This document shows positions 1,300 to 62,197 of a DNA stretch of 64,000 bases, one piece after another (the first letter of the stretch is position 1; each line of letters begins with the position of its first letter). The stretch comes from Gemmatimonadota bacterium (lineage in GTDB: Bacteria; Gemmatimonadota; Gemmatimonadetes; Gemmatimonadales; Gemmatimonadaceae): contig JAZKBK010000005.1 of assembly GCA_040388625.1 (NCBI GenBank), positions 347,478 through 411,477 of the forward strand, read 5' to 3'. The notes under the pieces are model-generated. The model saw only the letters and a list, made by a program, of their open reading frames with translations, made no database searches and was not told where the DNA came from. The position numbers were made by a program, and so were the translations under genes.

Positions 1300-1794
1300 A
1301 TGAAACTGACCGCAGGCGCTCTGGCGCCGGACTTCGAGCTCGAAAGTACCGCGGGCACCGTGTCACTCGCCGGACTGCGTGGTTCGCGAGTGGTACTCTA
1401 TTTCTATCCAAAGGATGACACGCCCGGTTGCACGCGCGAGGCATGCTCGTTCCGCGACAGCATGAGCCGGCTCCAGGGTCACGGCGCCACGATACTCGGC
1501 GTCTCCAGAGACTCGATGGATTCGCACCGCCGCTTTCGCGAGAAGTACGGCCTTCCGTTCGCACTCGCGTCGGACCCCGACAACACTGTGGCGAAGGCCT
1601 ACGGAGCCTTCGGAAAGAAGATGATGTACGGCAAGGAGGTCACGGGGACCATCCGCTCCACGTTCCTCATCGATCCGCAGGGACGCATCGAGCGAGTGTG
1701 GTCACCGGTGAAAGTTGACGGGCACGTAGATCAGATACTTGCTGCATTCGATGAAACTCATCCATCGGCGAGTGGAAAGAAGACGATACAGTGA
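1300..1794 (+). CDS. bcp: Thioredoxin-dependent peroxiredoxin, BCP/PrxQ type
   Basis: A 164-residue cytoplasmic AhpC/TSA-fold thiol peroxidase that reduces hydrogen peroxide and organic hydroperoxides with electrons from thioredoxin. The signature DDTPGCTREACSF carries the peroxidatic Cys (about residue 46) and, five residues on, the resolving Cys typical of atypical two-cysteine PrxQ proteins. FYPKDDTPGC and the later TFLIDP are conserved family blocks. Length matches the usual 150-165 residues. The ATG at 1300 is placed just before KLTAGALAPDFELES, the normal N-terminus. It is flanked by its own spacer on both sides and looks monocistronic. Confidence 0.95.
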   Translation: MKLTAGALAPDFELESTAGTVSLAGLRGSRVVLYFYPKDDTPGCTREACSFRDSMSRLQGHGATILGVSRDSMDSHRRFREKYGLPFALASDPDNTVAKAYGAFGKKMMYGKEVTGTIRSTFLIDPQGRIERVWSPVKVDGHVDQILAAFDETHPSASGKKTIQ

Positions 1795-1868
1795 AGCTCA
1801 GTCTCACCCCGTGCGCGGCGTCGCCTTCAACGCTCGGCAGCGGCCGCACGGTGGACTGAGCAGGACCG

Positions 1869-2417
1869 CTACGGAGCTGGTAGTGTCTGCGGCGTTCCGC
1901 TGCTCGAGTGGCGGCCCCGAATCGTGTCGACGTGTATACGGAGAAGTTGTACGCGCTGAGGCATCGGATCGTCGGCGGTGAGTATCTGCGGGACGGCCGT
2001 TCTCAACAGGTGCACCGCGGTCTCGAATCGAAACCAGTCGGCTGATTGCATGTCCGGGGAAAGGAACTCGACCGCTCCCACGACTTCCACGGAACGCCAA
2101 TCATAGACGCTCTCGGCTTCATGCACCTCGAACGCTGCCCACGGATGATGCCTGGCCATTATGAGATCTTCGCCAAGTTCCGTGCGTATGTATATCCATC
2201 CCGCGGAATAGATGTAGTTGCACAATTTCAGCCGCACGAGGTCATGGAAACTGATTCCAACATGACCCACATGATGCCGACCGAGCAACTCGAGCGCCTC
2301 GTCGTTCGACAGCTCTCGCAGATCCACGTGCAACTTGGCTCGACTCGGTGTTGCGGCAACGCTATCGCCACTGCCGGATGCAGCGTTCTGTGATGGATTG
2401 TGCGTGGATCCGATCAT
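1869..2417 (-). CDS. Pyridoxamine 5'-phosphate oxidase-like FMN-binding protein
   Basis: 182-residue split-barrel flavoprotein-like protein of the Pyridox_ox_2 type. The block LGRHHVGHVGISFHDLVRLKLCNYIYSAG matches the 'short side-chain FMN-binding' fold, and DLIMARHHPWAAFEVHEAES with DWRSVEVVG follows the family order. Such proteins bind FMN or F420 and act as small-molecule oxidoreductases; the true substrate is unknown. The start at 2417 was preferred over an upstream in-frame ATG because a clear AGGAGA ribosome-binding site lies 6-11 bases ahead of it. The first 30 residues are Ser/Ala-rich and probably disordered. Transcribed divergently from the ChaN-like gene. Confidence 0.75.
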   Translation of the reverse strand: MIGSTHNPSQNAASGSGDSVAATPSRAKLHVDLRELSNDEALELLGRHHVGHVGISFHDLVRLKLCNYIYSAGWIYIRTELGEDLIMARHHPWAAFEVHEAESVYDWRSVEVVGAVEFLSPDMQSADWFRFETAVHLLRTAVPQILTADDPMPQRVQLLRIHVDTIRGRHSSSGTPQTLPAP

Positions 2418-44193: not shown

Positions 44194-44222
44194 TGTCGGA
44201 TCGGGGCAAGTCTGTTCGTTGT
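44194..44222 (+). promoter_or_regulatory. ECF42-type promoter upstream of the secreted protein gene
   Basis: TGTCGGA (44194-44200), a 16-base spacer and CGTTGT (44217-44222) lie about 52 bases ahead of the ATG. The same boxes and spacing recur at 45004-45032, and the flanks also agree (TGTCGGATCG ... CGTTGTAG). A TGTCGA-like −35 has been reported for ECF42 sigma factors. Confidence 0.65.
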
Positions 44223-44273
44223 AGTGGTGAGACTGATTGGAACACCACGCCCCACTACGAGGAGAACAGACCA

Positions 44274-44972
44274 ATGCAGCGAACCAGGATCCGCTCGATC
44301 GCAATCAACACGATCGCAGTACTCGCCGTGCTCGGCGCGGCGAATTCAGCGAGGGCGCAGGGCGGCGCGACGACGTATCCGCGCATGGCTCCGGTCGAGC
44401 AGTATCTAATGGACCGGACCGCGGAGATCGCGCTGGCGCGCACCGCAGCGCCGGCCTCCATCTCACGCGACGCGGCGGTGCTGGTGCTCGGTCGTCACGG
44501 CTTCGAGACCGCGGTCGCGGGGAAGAACGGCTTCGTCTGCTTCGTTGATCGTGGATGGAGCTCCGCGCCCGATCCCGACTTCTGGAATCCGAAAGTGCGC
44601 GTTCCACAGTGTGAGAACGCACCGAGCGCGCAGTCGCATCTTCCAATTATTCTGAAGCGAGCGGCGCTGGCGCTGGCGGGACGGACGAAGGATCAAGTGG
44701 AGAAGGCCACGACGACGGCCATCGCCACGAAGGAGCTGCCGCCGATGGCGCCCGGCGCGATGTGCTACATGATGTCGAAGCAGGGATACGCCGGCGACAG
44801 CAGCAAGCACTGGCCGTCGCACATCATGTTCTTCTATTCGCATTTCGATCCGGCCAATTGGGGAGCGAATCTGCCGGGGTCCCCGGTGCTCGGGATGGAA
44901 GACACGGTCAACCACCTGACGGGGTTCGCGATTCCCGTGCAGCACTGGTCGGATGGAACGCCCGCCCGCTGA
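44274..44972 (+). CDS. Secreted protein of unknown family, ECF42 module member
   Basis: 232 residues with a signal peptide (MQRTRIRSIAINTIAVLAVL, ending near ARAQ). The mature part shares long blocks with the protein at 60809-61594: TYPRMAPVEQYLMDRTAEIA, LARTAAPASISRDAAVLVLG, GFETAVAGKNGFVCFVDRGW and FWNPKVRVPQCENA, then GAMCYMMSKQGY and WSDGT near the end. Two Cys (in GFVCFV and PQCEN) are conserved between the two, so a disulfide is possible outside the cytoplasm. No enzyme motif was recognised. GAGGAGAA precedes the ATG. It is the first gene of the plus-strand module and has its own sigma-type promoter. Confidence 0.8.
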   Translation: MQRTRIRSIAINTIAVLAVLGAANSARAQGGATTYPRMAPVEQYLMDRTAEIALARTAAPASISRDAAVLVLGRHGFETAVAGKNGFVCFVDRGWSSAPDPDFWNPKVRVPQCENAPSAQSHLPIILKRAALALAGRTKDQVEKATTTAIATKELPPMAPGAMCYMMSKQGYAGDSSKHWPSHIMFFYSHFDPANWGANLPGSPVLGMEDTVNHLTGFAIPVQHWSDGTPAR

Positions 44973-45003
44973 GCGGAGCTGCGCAGCGAGATTTCGGGAG
45001 TGT

Positions 45004-45032
45004 TGTCGGATCGAGGGCGGTCCGTACGTTGT
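45004..45032 (+). promoter_or_regulatory. ECF42-type promoter upstream of the DGPF gene
   Basis: TGTCGGA (45004-45010), 16-base spacer, CGTTGT (45027-45032), 49 bases ahead of the DGPF start codon. It also serves the sigma gene, which overlaps the end of the DGPF gene, so the sigma factor would drive its own synthesis. Confidence 0.65.
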
Positions 45033-45080
45033 AGGAGTGAACGGGCCGCATGCGCGCCCCAAACCCAGGAGAAGTTCGAG

Positions 45081-45416
45081 ATGCATTATCTGCTTTCCGT
45101 GATCGCCGAGGGTGCCAGTCTCGCTGACGACGCCGAGATGGCTGCGATCGACGTCTTCAACGAGCGACTCCAGGCGAATGGTCACTGGGTCTTCGCTGGC
45201 GGGCTCGGCACCCCGGACACGGCCACCGTGATCGACAACCGCCGCGGCGAGGAAGTGTTCACCGACGGGCCGTTCGTGGAGTCGAAGGAATACCTCGCCG
45301 GCTTCTGGATCATCGACGCGTCCGATCTCGACGTCGCGCTCAAGCTCGCCGCCGCGGGCTCCAAGGCGTGCAATCGCAAGGTCGAGGTTCGGCCGTTCCT
45401 TTCCAACCCTGAGTGA
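45081..45416 (+). CDS. DGPF/YCII-family protein, ECF42 partner
   Basis: 111 residues: MHYLLSVIAEGASLADDAEM, the YCII/DGPF core VFAGGLGTPDTATVID and the motif EVFTDGPFVESKEYLAGFWI that names the DGPF group. Proteins of this fold are small ferredoxin-like dimers; their function is unknown, but they are the standard genomic partner and target of ECF42 sigma factors. AGGAG lies ahead of the ATG at 45081. The stop TGA shares one base with the sigma factor's ATG, giving translational coupling. Confidence 0.9.
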   Translation: MHYLLSVIAEGASLADDAEMAAIDVFNERLQANGHWVFAGGLGTPDTATVIDNRRGEEVFTDGPFVESKEYLAGFWIIDASDLDVALKLAAAGSKACNRKVEVRPFLSNPE

Positions 45417-46639
45417 TGGACGTCCAGGAAGCGATCACGCGCGCGCACCACGAGGAGTGGGCCCGCGTGGTCGCCGCCCTGGCGAAGCGCTTCGGCAATC
45501 TCGACGTCGCCGAAGAAGCAGCGGCCGAGGCATTCGCGACCGCGGTCGTGAGGTGGCCGTCGGACGGCGTACCTCCAAATCCAGGCGCGTGGCTGATGAC
45601 CGCGGCCAATCGCAAAGCCATCGACTGGATCCGACGCGAGAACAAGCGCGACGGCAAGCAGAGAGAGGCGCAGATGCTCTACATCGACGACGAGCCCGAG
45701 CCGCTCGATGCGATCGGGGACGAACGGCTGCGGTTGATCTTCACCTGCTGCCATCCGGCGCTCTCGATGGAGGCGCGCGTCGCGCTCACGCTGCGCATGG
45801 CAGGCGGGCTGACGGTGGCGGAGATCGCTCGCGCCTTCTTCGTGCAGGAGACCGCGATGGGGCAGCGGATCACGCGCGCGAAGGGGAAGATCCGCGTCGC
45901 TCGCATACCATATCGCACGCCATCGGTGGAGGATCTTCCCGGGCGGGTCTCTGGAATACTCGCCGTGCTGTTCCTCGTCTTCAACGAAGGCTACCTGGCG
46001 ACGGGACCCGACGCCGATCCGATCCGTCCTGCGCTCACCGCCGAGGCGATCCGGCTCACGCGGCTCGTGCACGTGCTCATGCCAGACGACGGCGAGGTGG
46101 CCGGACTGCTCGCGTTGATGCTGCTCATCGAGGCACGCAGGACGACGCGAGTTTCCGAGCGTGGCGAGCTGGTCCCGCTCGGAGAGCAGGATCGTGCGAG
46201 CTGGGATGCGGCGATGATCGCCGAGGGACATCGATTGGTGCGCGAGCGACTGGCTTCCGGCGTGGCTCCGGGGCGCTACCAGATACACGCGGCGATCAAC
46301 ACGGTGCACACCTCCGTCCGACACGTGCGGGATACTGACTGGTCGCAGATCGTCGCGCTGTACGATCAGCTCGCTCGCATCGATCCGTCGCCGGTCGTCA
46401 CGCTGAACCGCGCCATCGCGGTCGCCGAGGTCGATGGGCCGCGAGCGGCGCTCGCGATCGTCGACATGCTCGATGACACGCTCGCCGGCTATCACGCCTA
46501 CCATGCGACACGCGCCGACCTGCTGCGGCGGCTGGGATCGATGCCGGAGGCGCGCGCGGCGTACGACAGGGCGATCGAGCTCTCGGGGAACGCGGCCGAG
46601 AGCGCGTACCTCGCGCGTCGACGCGAAACGTTGGAGTAG
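45416..46639 (+). CDS. ECF42 sigma factor with TPR-like C-terminal extension
   Basis: 407 residues. Region 2 is in HHEEWARVVAALAKRFGNLD ... EEAAAEAFATAVVRWPSDGVPPNPGAWLMTAANRKAIDW; region 4 is in LRLIFTCCHPALSMEARVALTLRMAGGLTVAEIARAFFVQETAMGQRITRAKGKI. A long helical extension (DUF6596, TPR-like) follows with VLFLVFNEGY, SGVAPGRYQIHAAINTVH and a final RADLLRRLGSMPEARAAYDRAIELSG. In studied ECF42 proteins the extension is needed for activity, and no anti-sigma factor is present, as here. It is coupled to the DGPF gene and is probably self-activating. Confidence 0.95.
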   Translation: MDVQEAITRAHHEEWARVVAALAKRFGNLDVAEEAAAEAFATAVVRWPSDGVPPNPGAWLMTAANRKAIDWIRRENKRDGKQREAQMLYIDDEPEPLDAIGDERLRLIFTCCHPALSMEARVALTLRMAGGLTVAEIARAFFVQETAMGQRITRAKGKIRVARIPYRTPSVEDLPGRVSGILAVLFLVFNEGYLATGPDADPIRPALTAEAIRLTRLVHVLMPDDGEVAGLLALMLLIEARRTTRVSERGELVPLGEQDRASWDAAMIAEGHRLVRERLASGVAPGRYQIHAAINTVHTSVRHVRDTDWSQIVALYDQLARIDPSPVVTLNRAIAVAEVDGPRAALAIVDMLDDTLAGYHAYHATRADLLRRLGSMPEARAAYDRAIELSGNAAESAYLARRRETLE

Positions 46640-49606: not shown

Positions 49607-49948
49607 ATGGCCAAATACCTGATCTCTTTTCCAAGCGCGGCGATGATTGTACCCGATGGCGAATGCGAAGCCGTAGGCCGCGCCGCGCACGCTGTGATCG
49701 ACGAGGCGAAAGCCGCCGGTGTTTACGTCTTCGGCGGCGGAATCGACGAAGACGTACCGCCCGTGCTCGTCTCTGCCGACGGCACGGTTGCAACGGGCGG
49801 CTATCCCTGGGCGCCCAAGCTCGACGGCGGCTTCACCGTGTTGGAGCTGCCTTCGCGCGATGAGGCCATCGTGTGGGCGGCGCGCATCGCCAGGGCCTGT
49901 CGCTGCGACCAGGAACTGCGCGTCTTCGGGTTCGACCCGCAGTCCTGA
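49607..49948 (+). CDS. YCII-related protein, probable integron cassette gene
   Basis: 113 residues: AKYLISFPSAAMIVPDGECE, VYVFGGGIDEDVPPVLVSADGTVATGGYPWAPKLDGGFTVLELPSRDEAIVWAARIA and a C-terminal FGFDP. This is the YCII/DGPF fold with GGYPWAPKLDGG in place of TDGPFVESKEYLGG, so it is a divergent relative of the ECF42 partners. AGAAGGAG precedes the ATG. It follows the GNAT attC by about 45 bases; its own attC is absent, and a REP element begins 12 bases after the stop, so the cassette end was probably overwritten. Confidence 0.8.
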   Translation: MAKYLISFPSAAMIVPDGECEAVGRAAHAVIDEAKAAGVYVFGGGIDEDVPPVLVSADGTVATGGYPWAPKLDGGFTVLELPSRDEAIVWAARIARACRCDQELRVFGFDPQS

Positions 49949-55718: not shown

Positions 55719-56138
55719 TCACGCCGCTTCGAATACGATGTCCTGCGCGCCATGATACAGCACGTAGCGCCCCATCTCCTCGAGACGTTCTCGGCCTTCT
55801 ATGATTTCGAGAAAATGATTTCCTGCGAGCTGACCGGCCTTGCTTCCGAAGACTGACGAGCCGTACGCGAACAGCAGCTCCGTTTCGCTGATCCCGCCCG
55901 GATACCAGAGCAGATCGCCGCGCGACGGATGGCTCGTGTGGTTCTCGTATCCGACACCGAGCTGATAGTCGCCGAGCGGGATCCAGCATGCCTCGCCGCT
56001 CCAGCGGGCATGGATCAGGCGCTGGCGATAGGGAAGCAGCGCAGTGAACGCAGCGCAGGTGTTGGGAGCGCGATCGGCAAGCAATTTCGCCGTGAAGGCA
56101 AATGTGTTCGCGACAGTGATTGTGATCATGTCAATCAT
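55719..56138 (-). CDS. DUF3830 cyclophilin-like protein
   Basis: 139 residues: MITITVANTFAFTAKLLADRAPNTCAAFTALLPYRQRLIHARWSGEACWIPLGDYQLGVGYENHTSHPSRGDLLWYPGG (quoted family blocks RAPNTCAAF, HARWSGEACW, YENHTSHP) and GNHFLEIIEG. DUF3830 has a cyclophilin-like barrel and is linked in other bacteria to ring-opening or hydantoinase-type catabolism. Two starts are possible, 56138 and 56129; the first overlaps the sigma gene's stop, so the two genes are coupled. DUF3830 is not a known ECF41 partner. Confidence 0.8.
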   Translation of the reverse strand: MIDMITITVANTFAFTAKLLADRAPNTCAAFTALLPYRQRLIHARWSGEACWIPLGDYQLGVGYENHTSHPSRGDLLWYPGGISETELLFAYGSSVFGSKAGQLAGNHFLEIIEGRERLEEMGRYVLYHGAQDIVFEAA

Positions 56139-57021
56139 CAGAAGAATCGGTGAGCGACGCAAGCGCCAGCCTTTCGATGGCCGCCGGATCCCCCACCACA
56201 TCCATCGCGGCGATGCGTCCGTCGTCGGCGAACGCGATCTGAAACACCAGCAGCATCCGGCGGGGCACAGGCACATGAACGCCGACCTCGCCGTCCACCA
56301 ACCCGACCACGGCCGTCCGCGCGCGTCCCTTGAATAGATCCGCGACCGCGGCGGCGCCCACGACTTCCGCGTGACCGCCCAGCTTCACCGCAGCGGCGTC
56401 GCCGCGGACCACCACGTCCGGGTCGAGCACCGCGATCAATTTCTCCAGGTCGCCTGCCTTGGACGCCGCAAGAAACGCTTCGACGACCTCGCGTTGCCGC
56501 CGCCGGTCGGTCTCCACGCTCCCCGATGCCCCTCGCACGCGACGTCGCGCTCTGCTCGCCAACTGACGCGCGGCCATCGGCGAGCGCTGAACGATCGGCG
56601 CGATCTCTTCGAACGTCAGGTCGAACATGTCGTGCAGCACAAACGCCACGCGCTCGGCGGGCGCCAGCTTTTCGAGCACGATCACCAGCGCCATGCCAAC
56701 AGAATCGGCCAGCAGCGCGTCCGCCTCCGCGCCACGTTCGTGGCGACGTCCGGCCGACGGCTCGGGTTCGTGCGCGCCCAGTGATTCCTCCGCGCGTGCG
56801 CGACGTGACCGCAGCATGTCCAGACACACGCGACTCACGATGGTCGTGAGCCACCCGCCCATGTTATCCACGTCATCGGCGTCCGCGCGGCTAACTCGCA
56901 GCCACGCCTCCTGCACCGCGTCGTCCGCCTCGGTGGTCGACCCCAGCATGCGATACGCAACCGCCCGCAGATGGTCGCGCGAAGTTTCGAATTGCCGCGC
57001 CAGGGCGTCGTGTTCAGTCAT
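56131..57021 (-). CDS. ECF41-type (SigJ-like) sigma factor with SnoaL-like domain
   Basis: 296 residues. Region 2: ARQFETSRDHLRAVAYRMLG then DDAVQEAWLRVSRADADDVD and GGWLTTIVSRVCLDMLRSRRAR. Region 4: LEKLAPAERVAFVLHDMFDLTFEEIAPIVQRSPMAARQLASRARRRVRG. The C-terminal NTF2/SnoaL domain (REVVEAFLAASKAGDLEKLI ... RMLLVFQIAFADDGRIAAMD) replaces an anti-sigma factor, as in ECF41/ECF56 proteins. It is divergent from the CMD gene, the standard ECF41 partner class, and both have matching promoters in the spacer. It should sense an unknown signal through its own C-terminal domain. Confidence 0.95.
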   Translation of the reverse strand: MTEHDALARQFETSRDHLRAVAYRMLGSTTEADDAVQEAWLRVSRADADDVDNMGGWLTTIVSRVCLDMLRSRRARAEESLGAHEPEPSAGRRHERGAEADALLADSVGMALVIVLEKLAPAERVAFVLHDMFDLTFEEIAPIVQRSPMAARQLASRARRRVRGASGSVETDRRRQREVVEAFLAASKAGDLEKLIAVLDPDVVVRGDAAAVKLGGHAEVVGAAAVADLFKGRARTAVVGLVDGEVGVHVPVPRRMLLVFQIAFADDGRIAAMDVVGDPAAIERLALASLTDSSDD

Positions 57022-57084: not shown

Positions 57085-57094
57085 AGGAGTGAAC

Positions 57095-57601
57095 ATGCCA
57101 ACATTGCAGGAACGACCCACGACCCCAGCACCAGAAACGCTGGTTACGATCCAGCCGCGACTCCTGAACCCTGCCGCGATGGTGCCGGACGCGCTGGAAG
57201 GTATTCAGAAGATGCTGGTTGCCGTGCAGAAGGGAGGACTGAGCCCGAGCATCCTGGCGTTGACGCACATGCGTGCCAGCCAGATCAACGGGTGCAGCTC
57301 CTGTATAGAAGGAACTATCAACCACGAGCTGCGTTCGGGTGAGCTGGACGACCGGCTGCTGGCGGTAGCAGCCTGGCACGACTCGTCGCGCTTCGCCGCC
57401 GACGAGCGCGCCGCGCTTGCGCTCACCGAGTGCATGACGCGACTGGACGACCGTGCGGATGCGGTGCCTGATGACATCTGGCAGGCGGCCGCGGAGCACT
57501 TCGATGAACGCGGGTTGGCGGCGCTGGTGCTGCACGTCGCGCTCGTCAATCTGTTCAACCGGCTCAACGTCACTACTCGCCAACCGGCCGGGGAGTGGTA
57601 G
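57095..57601 (+). CDS. Carboxymuconolactone decarboxylase/AhpD-like protein
   Basis: 168 residues: NPAAMVPDALEGIQKMLVAVQKGGLSPSILALTHMRASQINGCSSCIEGTINHELR, with the CxxC...H redox motif (CSSCIEGTINH) of the AhpD/CMD fold. LAVAAWHDSSRFAADERAALALTECMTRL follows in family order. These helical proteins work as thiol peroxidase partners or decarboxylases. GAGGAG is directly upstream of the ATG at 57095; the GTG six bases earlier is less likely. Its promoter is of the ECF41 type, which makes it the expected target of the divergent sigma factor. Confidence 0.9.
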   Translation: MPTLQERPTTPAPETLVTIQPRLLNPAAMVPDALEGIQKMLVAVQKGGLSPSILALTHMRASQINGCSSCIEGTINHELRSGELDDRLLAVAAWHDSSRFAADERAALALTECMTRLDDRADAVPDDIWQAAAEHFDERGLAALVLHVALVNLFNRLNVTTRQPAGEW

Positions 57602-59368: not shown

Positions 59369-60649
59369 CTAAATCGATGGGGCGGCTTCTTCCGTCTCCT
59401 TGAGTCTGCGCGCCAACAGCATCTGCTCTCGACGGTTCTGCGTCAGAGCGATGGCGCGCTGGATTTCCTTCCCTGCCTCGGCGAATCTGCCCAGTTTCAT
59501 GAGCAGGTCTCCTCGAACGCTGGGAAAGAGGTGATAGGAAGCCAGCGCAGTGTCGGAAAGGCCTGCCGCGATGGAATCGAGTGCATTCAGCCCTGCAGCT
59601 GGACCGTAGGCCATACCTACAGCAACTGCGCGATTGAGTCCTACGACGGGAGACGGATTGACGTCGAGCAAGTTGTGATAGAGGAACACGATGCGTTCCC
59701 AATCGGTCTCGTCGGCGGTGCGGGCACGCATGTGACAAGCGGCTATTGCCGCCTGCAACGCATAGTTTCCGGCACCCCCGCCGAGCCGTTCAGCGCGTTC
59801 GAGCGCGGCCATGCCACGCTGAACCTGCGCGCGGTCCCAGAGCGAACGATCCTGATCCGGAAGCAATACCGGCTCACCGTCGCTTCCCACGCGAGCCGCA
59901 GCGCGCGAGGCGTTCAGTTCCATCAAGGCCAGAAGCGCGTGAACTTCAGATTCGTCCGGCAGAAGCTGCGCAAGAAGCCATCCGAGCCGCAACGCCTCGG
60001 CGGAGAGTTCTGATCGCATCCACTCCGCGCCTGATGTCGCTGTGTAACCTTCGTTGAAAATCAGGTACACTACTGACAGTACTGACTTCAGCCTGCGTTT
60101 CAGCTCATCACCACGCGGCGTCTCGAAGGGTACCCGGGCGTTGGATAGCGCCTTCTTGGCGCGGGAAATCCGTTGTCCCATCGTCTTCTCGGTGACCAGC
60201 AGTGCGCGGGCAGTCTCAGCGGTAGAGAGACCACCAAGCAAGCGCAGGGTAAGTGCAACGCGGCCCTCGACCGGCAGCACAGGATGGCACGCGGTGAAGA
60301 TGAGCCGGAGTACGTCGTCGTCGATGACCTGATCGAGAGCCTGATCCATCGCCTCACAGAGCCGCTGCTGCTGCCATTCAATGTCTCGGGTAATCTCCTC
60401 GTGCTTCTGCGCAATCATCCGTCCACGACGCAGACCGTCGATGGCTCGCCGCTTCGCCGCTATCATCAGCCACGCAGCGGGATTCTCGGGAATACCCTCA
60501 TGCGGCCACCGCTCAAATGCCAGAACCAGCGCGTCCTGCGCCAATTCCTCGGCAATGCTGATGTCGCCGGTGACGCGGGCAATCGCAGAAATGAGCCGAC
60601 TTGCCTCGATCTTCCAGACGGCCTCTATCGTCCCCTGAACATCGCCCAT
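59369..60649 (-). CDS. ECF42 sigma factor with TPR-like C-terminal extension, second copy
   Basis: 426 residues from ATG 60649. Region 2: ASRLISAIARVTGDISIAEE then LAQDALVLAFERWPHEGIPENPAAWLMIAAKRRAIDGLRRG; region 4: LRLIFTACHPVLPVEGRVALTLRLLGGLSTAETARALLVTEKTMGQRISRAKKAL. The DUF6596/TPR-like part has VVYLIFNEGY, ALLALMELNASRAAARVGSD and a final DLLMKLGRFAEAGKEIQRAIALT. Same design as the copy at 45416, with clear divergence. It is downstream of the DGPF and secreted-protein genes on the minus strand, about 160 bases after the latter. The upstream alternative start is a TTG with no support. Confidence 0.95.
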   Translation of the reverse strand: MGDVQGTIEAVWKIEASRLISAIARVTGDISIAEELAQDALVLAFERWPHEGIPENPAAWLMIAAKRRAIDGLRRGRMIAQKHEEITRDIEWQQQRLCEAMDQALDQVIDDDVLRLIFTACHPVLPVEGRVALTLRLLGGLSTAETARALLVTEKTMGQRISRAKKALSNARVPFETPRGDELKRRLKSVLSVVYLIFNEGYTATSGAEWMRSELSAEALRLGWLLAQLLPDESEVHALLALMELNASRAAARVGSDGEPVLLPDQDRSLWDRAQVQRGMAALERAERLGGGAGNYALQAAIAACHMRARTADETDWERIVFLYHNLLDVNPSPVVGLNRAVAVGMAYGPAAGLNALDSIAAGLSDTALASYHLFPSVRGDLLMKLGRFAEAGKEIQRAIALTQNRREQMLLARRLKETEEAAPSI

Positions 60650-60808: not shown

Positions 60809-61594
60809 TCATTCATGTTGCGCGCTTGCTTGCGCGTTTGCTTGCGCGTTTGCTTGCGCGTTTGCAAGCGTTCCGTCGGACCATGTCGATTGCGCTACCA
60901 GGAACACGAGAATGGGCGGCAGCTCACTGACTCGAGTTTCCTTTTTCGGAGCGAAGAACCAGTACGCGCTGGACATCACCGGCGATCCTGCCGCTCCCGA
61001 TCCCCAGTCTCCAGCGTCTCGAACGAGCGTGTAGAACATGAGATGCGGCATATTGTGGCCGCCGCGATCGGTAAGGTATGAGGATTTGGACATCATGTAG
61101 TCCATTGCCCCGTTTTCGAGCGCCGGCAGTTGTCTCTTCCTGTATGCGGTATTCAGTGCAGACAAGATCTCCTGCCTGGAGCGACCGGCCAGGACCATTC
61201 GGGCGCGCAGAGTCACGATGGGCACGATCGAGCGCGCGGCTTGCGGGTTGAGACAATCAGCGGCCTTAACGTTGGGGTTCCAGAATTCATCCCAATCGAA
61301 TGCCGCGCCCCATGCTCTCCCCACGAAGCAGACGAAGCCGTTTTTCCCGTGGACCGCTGTCTCATATCCGCCCGGCCCCAGAACCAGCACCGTCGCGTCG
61401 CGGGATATCGACTCCGGCGCCGCACTTCGCGCCAAGGCGATCTCCGCGCTTCGGTCCATCAGATACTCTTTGACGGGCGCCATCTTCGGATAGCGCGTCT
61501 CGACATTCTGTGCCCTTGCCGTGCGCGCCCCGCCGAGCAAGACCAGCAGTGCGAGAGACTTGAAACCGATTGCGCCGACGCCGTTTTCGCGCAT
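60809..61594 (-). CDS. Secreted protein of unknown family, second ECF42 module member
   Basis: 261 residues. GGAGGG seven bases upstream and a signal peptide (VGAIGFKSLALLVLLGGART, ending ARAQ) fix the start at 61594. It is homologous to the protein at 44274-44972: RYPKMAPVKEYLMDRSAEIA, LARSAAPESISRDATVLVLG, GYETAVHGKNGFVCFVGRAW, FWNPNVKAADCLNP, GAMDYMMSKSSY and a final WSDGT. Two Cys are shared. Near the C-terminus four or so NAQA/SAQ units form a low-complexity tail. No known domain was recognised. It probably acts outside the cytoplasm as output of the ECF42 response. Confidence 0.8.
   Translation of the reverse strand: MRENGVGAIGFKSLALLVLLGGARTARAQNVETRYPKMAPVKEYLMDRSAEIALARSAAPESISRDATVLVLGPGGYETAVHGKNGFVCFVGRAWGAAFDWDEFWNPNVKAADCLNPQAARSIVPIVTLRARMVLAGRSRQEILSALNTAYRKRQLPALENGAMDYMMSKSSYLTDRGGHNMPHLMFYTLVRDAGDWGSGAAGSPVMSSAYWFFAPKKETRVSELPPILVFLVAQSTWSDGTLANAQANAQANAQASAQHE
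60821..60868. repeat. Tandem 12-base repeat encoding NAQA units
   Basis: CTTGCGCGTTTG is repeated three times exactly with partial units at either side, within the last codons of the secreted protein gene. On the coding strand it gives (NAQA)n. The in-frame 12-base unit can expand or contract without frameshift. Confidence 0.8.
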
Positions 61595-61757: not shown

Positions 61758-62117
61758 TCAGCCCTTTTCGGGAGCGGGCACGAAGAAGATCTCCCGCACC
61801 TCGGCCGGCATGGACACGCCGCACAAACTGGCAGCCCTGAGCGCCCAGGCACGTACCTCGTCCAGGTCGGCACACTCCCAGATCGACAATCCGCCTACGT
61901 GTTCCTTGGCCTCCAGATATGGCCCGTCGGTAAGAAGCAGCTCCCCGTCGGGCTGTGTCCGGAGCGTGTGGGCCGCGCCGAGACCGCAGGCAAACTTCGT
62001 CACGCCGGCAGCGTCCAATTCCCTGTTGAACGCGTGAATTCCCTCTACTGCTGCTTCGTCGATAGTCGACGGATCGAAGTTGTCGGGGAAGTACGTCGAA
62101 ACCAGATATTGCGGCAT
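61758..62117 (-). CDS. DGPF/YCII-family protein, second ECF42 partner
   Basis: 119 residues: PQYLVSTYFPDNFDPSTIDEAAVEGIHAFNRELDAAGVTKFACGLG and LLLTDGPYLEAKEHVGGLSIWECADLDEVRAWALRAA. DGPY replaces DGPF, and EAKEHVGGL follows as in the family. AGGAGACGAC lies directly upstream of the ATG. It is the first gene of the minus-strand module: DGPF, then secreted protein (163 bases on), then sigma factor. An ECF42-type promoter lies about 50 bases upstream. Confidence 0.9.
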   Translation of the reverse strand: MPQYLVSTYFPDNFDPSTIDEAAVEGIHAFNRELDAAGVTKFACGLGAAHTLRTQPDGELLLTDGPYLEAKEHVGGLSIWECADLDEVRAWALRAASLCGVSMPAEVREIFFVPAPEKG

Positions 62118-62168: not shown

Positions 62169-62197
62169 ACGACGAACGGCCAGACCGGATTTCTACA
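62169..62197 (-). promoter_or_regulatory. ECF42-type promoter of the second DGPF gene
   Basis: On the minus strand TGTAGAA, a 16-base spacer, then CGTCGT, 52 bases ahead of the start codon. It matches the two promoters of the other module in spacing and in most bases (TGTCGGA-N16-CGTTGT), with variation that may reflect a different sigma factor. Confidence 0.5.

Follow-up and report, generated by a model that had tools for sequence, protein, structure and literature searches.

Two modules of three genes each lie in the window, by which we mean the whole 64,000-nucleotide stretch of DNA from a soil-type Gemmatimonadota bacterium that was analysed, and each combines an ECF42 sigma factor with a YCII/DGPF protein and an exported protein that has no named family (called SEC here). 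ECF42 is a widespread sigma-factor group, and the locus raises the question of what an exported protein does in its company: whether it is made in response to the sigma factor, feeds a signal to it, or simply adjoins it.

The first-pass annotation had described an ECF42 factor with a TPR-like tail, a DGPF/YCII partner and a secreted protein, present together twice in the window, and both coordinates and domain matches agree with that description. Module 1, on the plus strand, has the order SEC1 (44274..44972, 232 aa), YCII1 (45081..45416, with its ATG at 45081; PF03795, E 5.9e-13) and sigma 1 (45413..46639, 408 aa), whose GTG start overlaps the YCII1 stop. Module 2, on the minus strand, has the order YCII2 (61758..62117; PF03795, E 1e-10), SEC2 (60809..61594, 261 aa) and sigma 2 (about 59369..60649). 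Both sigma factors match Sigma70_r2 and Sigma70_r4_2 over the cut-off, without a long region 3, and both carry the C-terminal extension of about 200 residues that is typical of ECF42, which here matches DUF6596 (PF20239; E 6.4e-32 for sigma 1 and 1.3e-37 for sigma 2) and matches TPR models below the cut-off only. The adjacent gene in each module encodes a YCII-domain protein, and ECF42-type target promoters (TGTCGR / CGTY-CGAC) precede both modules, with the variant TGTAGA before module 2. Across the 3.84-Mb genome (22 contigs) the picture is broader than two copies: there are six ECF42 genes, two of them with SEC, and three SEC genes, the third of which (L004, 9536-10249) lies on a separate contig with no ECF42 gene there and no promoter within 250 nt of its start. 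The other four ECF42 modules (L156-L159) consist of YCII and sigma genes only. On either side of the third SEC copy lie what appear to be genes for a thiamine-diphosphate decarboxylase and for a GntR-type regulator. The window also holds a small YCII/DGPF-looking protein (49607-49945, plus strand) with no adjoining sigma gene, no ECF42-type promoter and no Pfam match at 1e-3, and an ECF41-type sigma gene (56134-57021, minus strand; Sigma70_r2/r4, SnoaL_2 below the cut-off) divergent from a carboxymuconolactone decarboxylase gene (57089-57598, plus strand), which is the usual ECF41 pairing.

The exported proteins of the two modules are homologous, as had been proposed: aligning SEC1 with SEC2 gives 48% identity in 242 columns (E 9e-69), far above chance, and the blocks MDRxAEIALARxAAPxSIS, GKNGFVCFV and FWNPxV are present in both. 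Seven residues show no variation across 84 homologs: A55, G83, R93, M166, H183 and the two cysteines that SEC1 and SEC2 share, C89 and C113, which perhaps form a disulfide. Export is predicted from the signal peptide; by a heuristic, the N-terminus of SEC1 is signal-peptide-like and ends in ARAQ, and a simple rule finds such a start in 79 of 83 SEC proteins. The family is found in Acidobacteriota, Gemmatimonadota, Verrucomicrobiota and Pseudomonadota. Neither SEC1 nor SEC2 has a Pfam match or an NCBIfam match near a cut-off, and none of the 84 homologs matches any Pfam family at E 0.1. A sequence search of the PDB returned nothing usable, and a tblastn search of plasmids gave one weak, unannotated match only, in Rhizobium etli. 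In some Acidobacteriota two SEC-family genes stand in tandem (L053, L058, L045 and L029), and in L053 and L058 one of the two is a distant paralog.

AlphaFold models were obtained for SEC1 (pLDDT 90.3, pTM 0.82) and for a distant relative sharing about 28% identity (pLDDT 84.6, pTM 0.77), and the latter has the same order of elements as SEC1. For these two models the best Foldseek E values (1.2 and 0.19) and the best VIA-align Z scores (2.7, rmsd 4.8, 88 aligned; 2.6, rmsd 4.5, 85 aligned) are at noise level, and no match to either was found among solved structures (PDB) and viral models (BFVD). In comparison with these structures and models, the predicted fold may be new. That SEC represents a fold not seen before and founds a new class of exported (periplasmic) proteins, either enzymes or binding proteins, which act on the very compounds that trigger ECF42 and give ECF42 an envelope arm, is a tentative idea that we would sooner bet against; if true, SEC could be a handle for finding the ECF42 signal.

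How closely SEC is tied to ECF42 depends on the part of the family considered. Among the 80 closest SEC loci in the GTDB collection, which as best matches to the query favour its own clades, 21 contain an ECF42 gene, in every case on the strand of SEC, and 59 have none in the locus DNA. ECF42 genes occur at about 0.3 per Mb (24 SEC-type genomes), a density at which chance alone would place fewer than one in the DNA of the 80 loci. The gene orders ECF-YCII-SEC, YCII-SEC-ECF and SEC-YCII-ECF all occur, and a fourth, YCII-ECF-SEC, is found in G199. The association is thus far above chance, on one strand and in several orders, but the idea of SEC as a conserved third gene of ECF42 modules does not hold. 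In a phylum sample of 298 genomes about 4% of ECF42 genes (of about 230, by the summed match column) have SEC nearby, which rules out SEC as a core ECF42 component. The same sample holds 52 SEC-family matches in 32 genomes, and ECF42 is present in 121 of the 298 genomes, 22 of the 32 with SEC and 9 of the 9 with a close SEC homolog, as raw counts that ignore kinship. Of 13 genomes picked for carrying unlinked SEC, six lack ECF42 altogether, indicating that SEC can work without ECF42. The first-pass annotation had named homologs lying mostly away from ECF42 as evidence against its reading; this is what we observe across the family, where 9 of the 52 matches have an ECF42 gene at a distance of 15 kb or less, 5 of these 9 being among the 15 closest relatives, whereas in the two subclades represented in the window 31 of 35 are linked to ECF42 or YCII.

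These subclades come from a quick tree of 102 SEC proteins with SH-aLRT support only. SEC1 falls in a supported clade of 27 rows, 24 of which have an ECF42 or YCII gene in the locus DNA, and SEC2 falls in a separate supported clade of 8 rows, 7 of them linked; the first spans Acidobacteriota and Gemmatimonadota, and the second also includes Verrucomicrobiota. On this tree the linkage label changes 7 times, compared with 33.5 in shuffles. Since SEC1 and SEC2 belong to separate supported clades that are each linked to ECF42/YCII, the two modules are old paralogs, each kept with ECF42, and a recent duplication within the window is ruled out, as the annotation had anticipated in arguing against a simple recent tandem copy. 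In the remaining pairs, identity is 45% between sigma 1 and sigma 2 and 38% between YCII1 and YCII2. A RibD_C gene adjoins SEC in 14 loci. In six Acidobacteriota loci the unlinked SEC gene is paired divergently with a gene for an HxlR-type regulator (in L042 at 1717-2145, minus strand), which suggests a second way of controlling the family.

Predicted ECF42-type promoters were then located by their motif. The candidate for SEC1 (TGTCGGATCGGGGCAAGTCTGTTCGTTGTA, 44194..44223, plus strand) lies 80 nt before the start codon, and its first base is the position at which the annotated module had been made to begin. The candidate for YCII1-sigma 1 (TGTCGGATCGAGGGCGGTCCGTACGTTGTA, 45004..45033, plus strand) lies 77 nt before the ATG at 45081. 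The two upstream regions have in common TGTCGGATCGRGGS...CGTTGTA, and the arrangement TGTCGGAT-N-CGTTGTA occurs before SEC1 and YCII1 and nowhere else in the 3.84-Mb genome: the pattern TGTCGGATN{13,18}CGTTGTA has exactly these two matches, compared with 0 for the reversed-pattern control and with about 0.04 expected by chance on our own estimate. The candidate for module 2 (TGTAGAAATCCGGTCTGGCCGTTCGTC, 62171..62197, minus strand) lies 80 nt before the YCII2 ATG; its element TGTAGAAAT-N-TTCGTC, 80 nt 5' of the module, is likewise unique in the genome, with a single match to TGTMGAAWN{12,14}GTTCGTC and 0 for the control. This promoter is near-identical to TGTCGAATTCCAGTCTGGCCGTTCGAC (L079) and TGTCGAATTCCGGTCTCGCCGTTCGTC (L085), both of which precede YCII genes in SEC loci. 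In all, ECF42-type elements precede five of the six ECF42 modules of the genome; among L156-L159, a TGT[CA]GA-type motif stands before YCII in three, and in L156 the pattern used gave no match. The difference between TGTCGGAT/CGTTGTA and TGTAGAAAT/TTCGTC agrees with two 45%-identical sigma factors that would keep separate promoters.

The ECF42 consensus published by Liu in 2018 is reportedly TGTCGA with CGA/TC. The elements of both modules resemble promoters mapped for RpoE10, the ECF42 factor of Sinorhizobium meliloti. The SEC1 promoter agrees in -35, -10 and spacing with the mapped promoter TGTCGGATCGGTTGCGGCTGGTGCGTC, whose spacing equals that of the SEC1 and YCII1 elements, and a second RpoE10 promoter reads TGTCGG ... 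TTCGTCC (PMC6180224). At the ortholog in G199, where YCII sits 50 nt behind SEC, the SEC1 promoter is identical over its first 27 nt and lies at the same -80 distance, and another SEC, positioned after YCII-ECF42, has a separate motif 91 nt before it. Using the motif TGT[CA]G[GA]-N15-18-CG[TA][CT], 30-180 nt before SEC or the adjacent upstream YCII, we found it at 22 of 29 linked SEC genes (5 with their own copy and 17 via YCII), a count made with a motif learned partly on the same YCII/SEC upstream regions and with a simple way of calling ORFs, and one that includes near-identical loci, which do not count as independent cases. The control rates were 9 of the 687 other ORFs that these loci contain and 2.5% of random positions; the remaining 7 of the 29 have no motif with the pattern used. 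Among orphan SEC genes of Acidobacteriaceae, outside the Rhodanobacter/Dyella clade, the promoter is found in 2 of 46, which equals background.

The best evidence on the role of SEC comes from Rhodanobacter and Dyella. All seven SEC genes there, which form one clade, have no ECF42 gene within 10 kb on either side, and all seven have TGTCGATTTC...TTCGTC about 75-145 nt before the start. ECF42 is present elsewhere in all seven genomes, two of which have a second ECF42 gene at a distance of about 14-15 kb from SEC. A tighter pattern finds 1-5 sites per genome, compared with 0 for the reversed control, and the genes behind these sites encode SEC, YCII, two kinds of GST, RibD_C and an exported YceI; one of the YCII genes is the one directly upstream of ECF42. 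The CGTTCGTC element is a candidate promoter element of the Rhodanobacter SEC, YCII, GST, RibD_C and YceI genes. In Dyella (L135, 1631-1909), a short, apparently truncated SEC-like ORF of 93 aa lies behind a second copy of the motif, with the full-length SEC elsewhere. Because the same motif precedes unlinked SEC genes and these other genes, SEC appears to be an output of the response rather than a mere neighbor. Together with the elements before SEC1, YCII1 and YCII2, this makes regulation of SEC by ECF42 well supported, as judged from DNA sequence, and we consider SEC a probable exported output of the ECF42 response.

A different role is conceivable, in which SEC is an extracytoplasmic sensor that binds the signal outside and feeds the sigma factor, its place in the operon being that of an autoregulated input. 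The input of ECF42 is unknown (PMC8999054), and SEC is predicted to be co-transcribed, and is co-inherited, with the sigma gene in two clades. We nevertheless regard a sensor as unlikely, since SEC would be soluble once the signal peptide is removed and its AlphaFold model has neither a membrane anchor nor a cytoplasmic part, most ECF42 modules do without SEC (including four of the six in this genome), and the Rhodanobacter SEC is an unlinked target gene. Less probable still is that SEC adjoins ECF42 through the joint spread of a block of genes in environmental bacteria, with no regulatory tie: the patchy occurrence across the four phyla and the several gene orders would fit such hitchhiking, but it does not account for genome-unique promoter copies specific to SEC or for the same motif before unlinked Rhodanobacter SEC genes. 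ECF promoters do resemble each other, but it is hardly credible that the promoters belong to another ECF group, such as the ECF41-type factor encoded 11 kb away, with ECF42 as a bystander: it is the ECF42 operons that have these elements in front of them, the elements agree with mapped RpoE10 targets, and the ECF41 promoter mapped in S. meliloti is TGTCACA, not TGTCGGA.

Most likely, then, SEC is a recurrent but optional exported output of ECF42. The proposal of the first-pass annotation is thus supported in part: in its linkage, its old copies and, through promoters that the annotation did not have, its ECF42-controlled output, but not in its conserved third gene. In the mechanism that we propose, the signal that activates ECF42 would presumably be sensed by the DUF6596/TPR extension of the sigma factor, perhaps with the YCII protein taking part, and RNA polymerase carrying ECF42 would start at the TGTCGR-N-CGTY/CGAC promoters before YCII and/or SEC. 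The output would be YCII, SEC and, in both window modules, more sigma factor. SEC, with its two invariant cysteines and invariant histidine, would leave the cytoplasm via its signal peptide as a soluble protein. The ECF42 response, thought to be intracellular, therefore probably also acts outside the cytoplasm, and an exported output would be a clue that it reaches the envelope. As to what SEC does there, the likeliest role might be that of a periplasmic protein that binds or modifies harmful small molecules (electrophiles or lipophilic compounds); this is a weak guess at detoxification, made by association because GST, RibD_C, YCII and YceI share the promoter. With a recurrent exported output, a searchable promoter and an unlinked copy in culturable Rhodanobacter, the system offers a testable reporter.

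What appears to be new here is an exported family, without a Pfam entry or a matching solved structure, that goes with predicted ECF42 promoters. In the literature that was searched we found nothing on SEC with ECF42, and the comparison that follows draws on PMC6180224 and PMC8999054. The ECF42 examples described are S. meliloti RpoE10, Pseudomonas putida ECF-10 and Streptomyces venezuelae Sven_0747/4377/7131 (PMC6180224, PMC8999054), and ECF42 activity needs the C-terminal extension (PMC8999054). These systems and the window modules are alike in having sigma 2, sigma 4, a long TPR-rich extension and a YCII partner gene (PMC6180224, PMC8999054), and also in promoter type and spacing (PMC6180224). 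They differ in that no exported SEC-family target is reported for the known systems in these papers (PMC6180224, PMC8999054), and the targets of S. meliloti RpoE10 are unlinked or adjacent proteins, for example glyoxalase-like ones. ECF41 with its carboxymuconolactone decarboxylase resembles ECF42 in being free of an anti-sigma factor, in having a C-terminal extension and in its single dedicated partner gene, but it has a SnoaL-like extension, another partner and another promoter, and the ECF41 gene of the window lies outside the SEC modules. YceI, which unlike SEC has a Pfam family and for which no sequence relation to SEC was found, resembles it in being exported and apparently in belonging to the same regulon, as two Rhodanobacter genomes have YceI behind the motif that precedes SEC.
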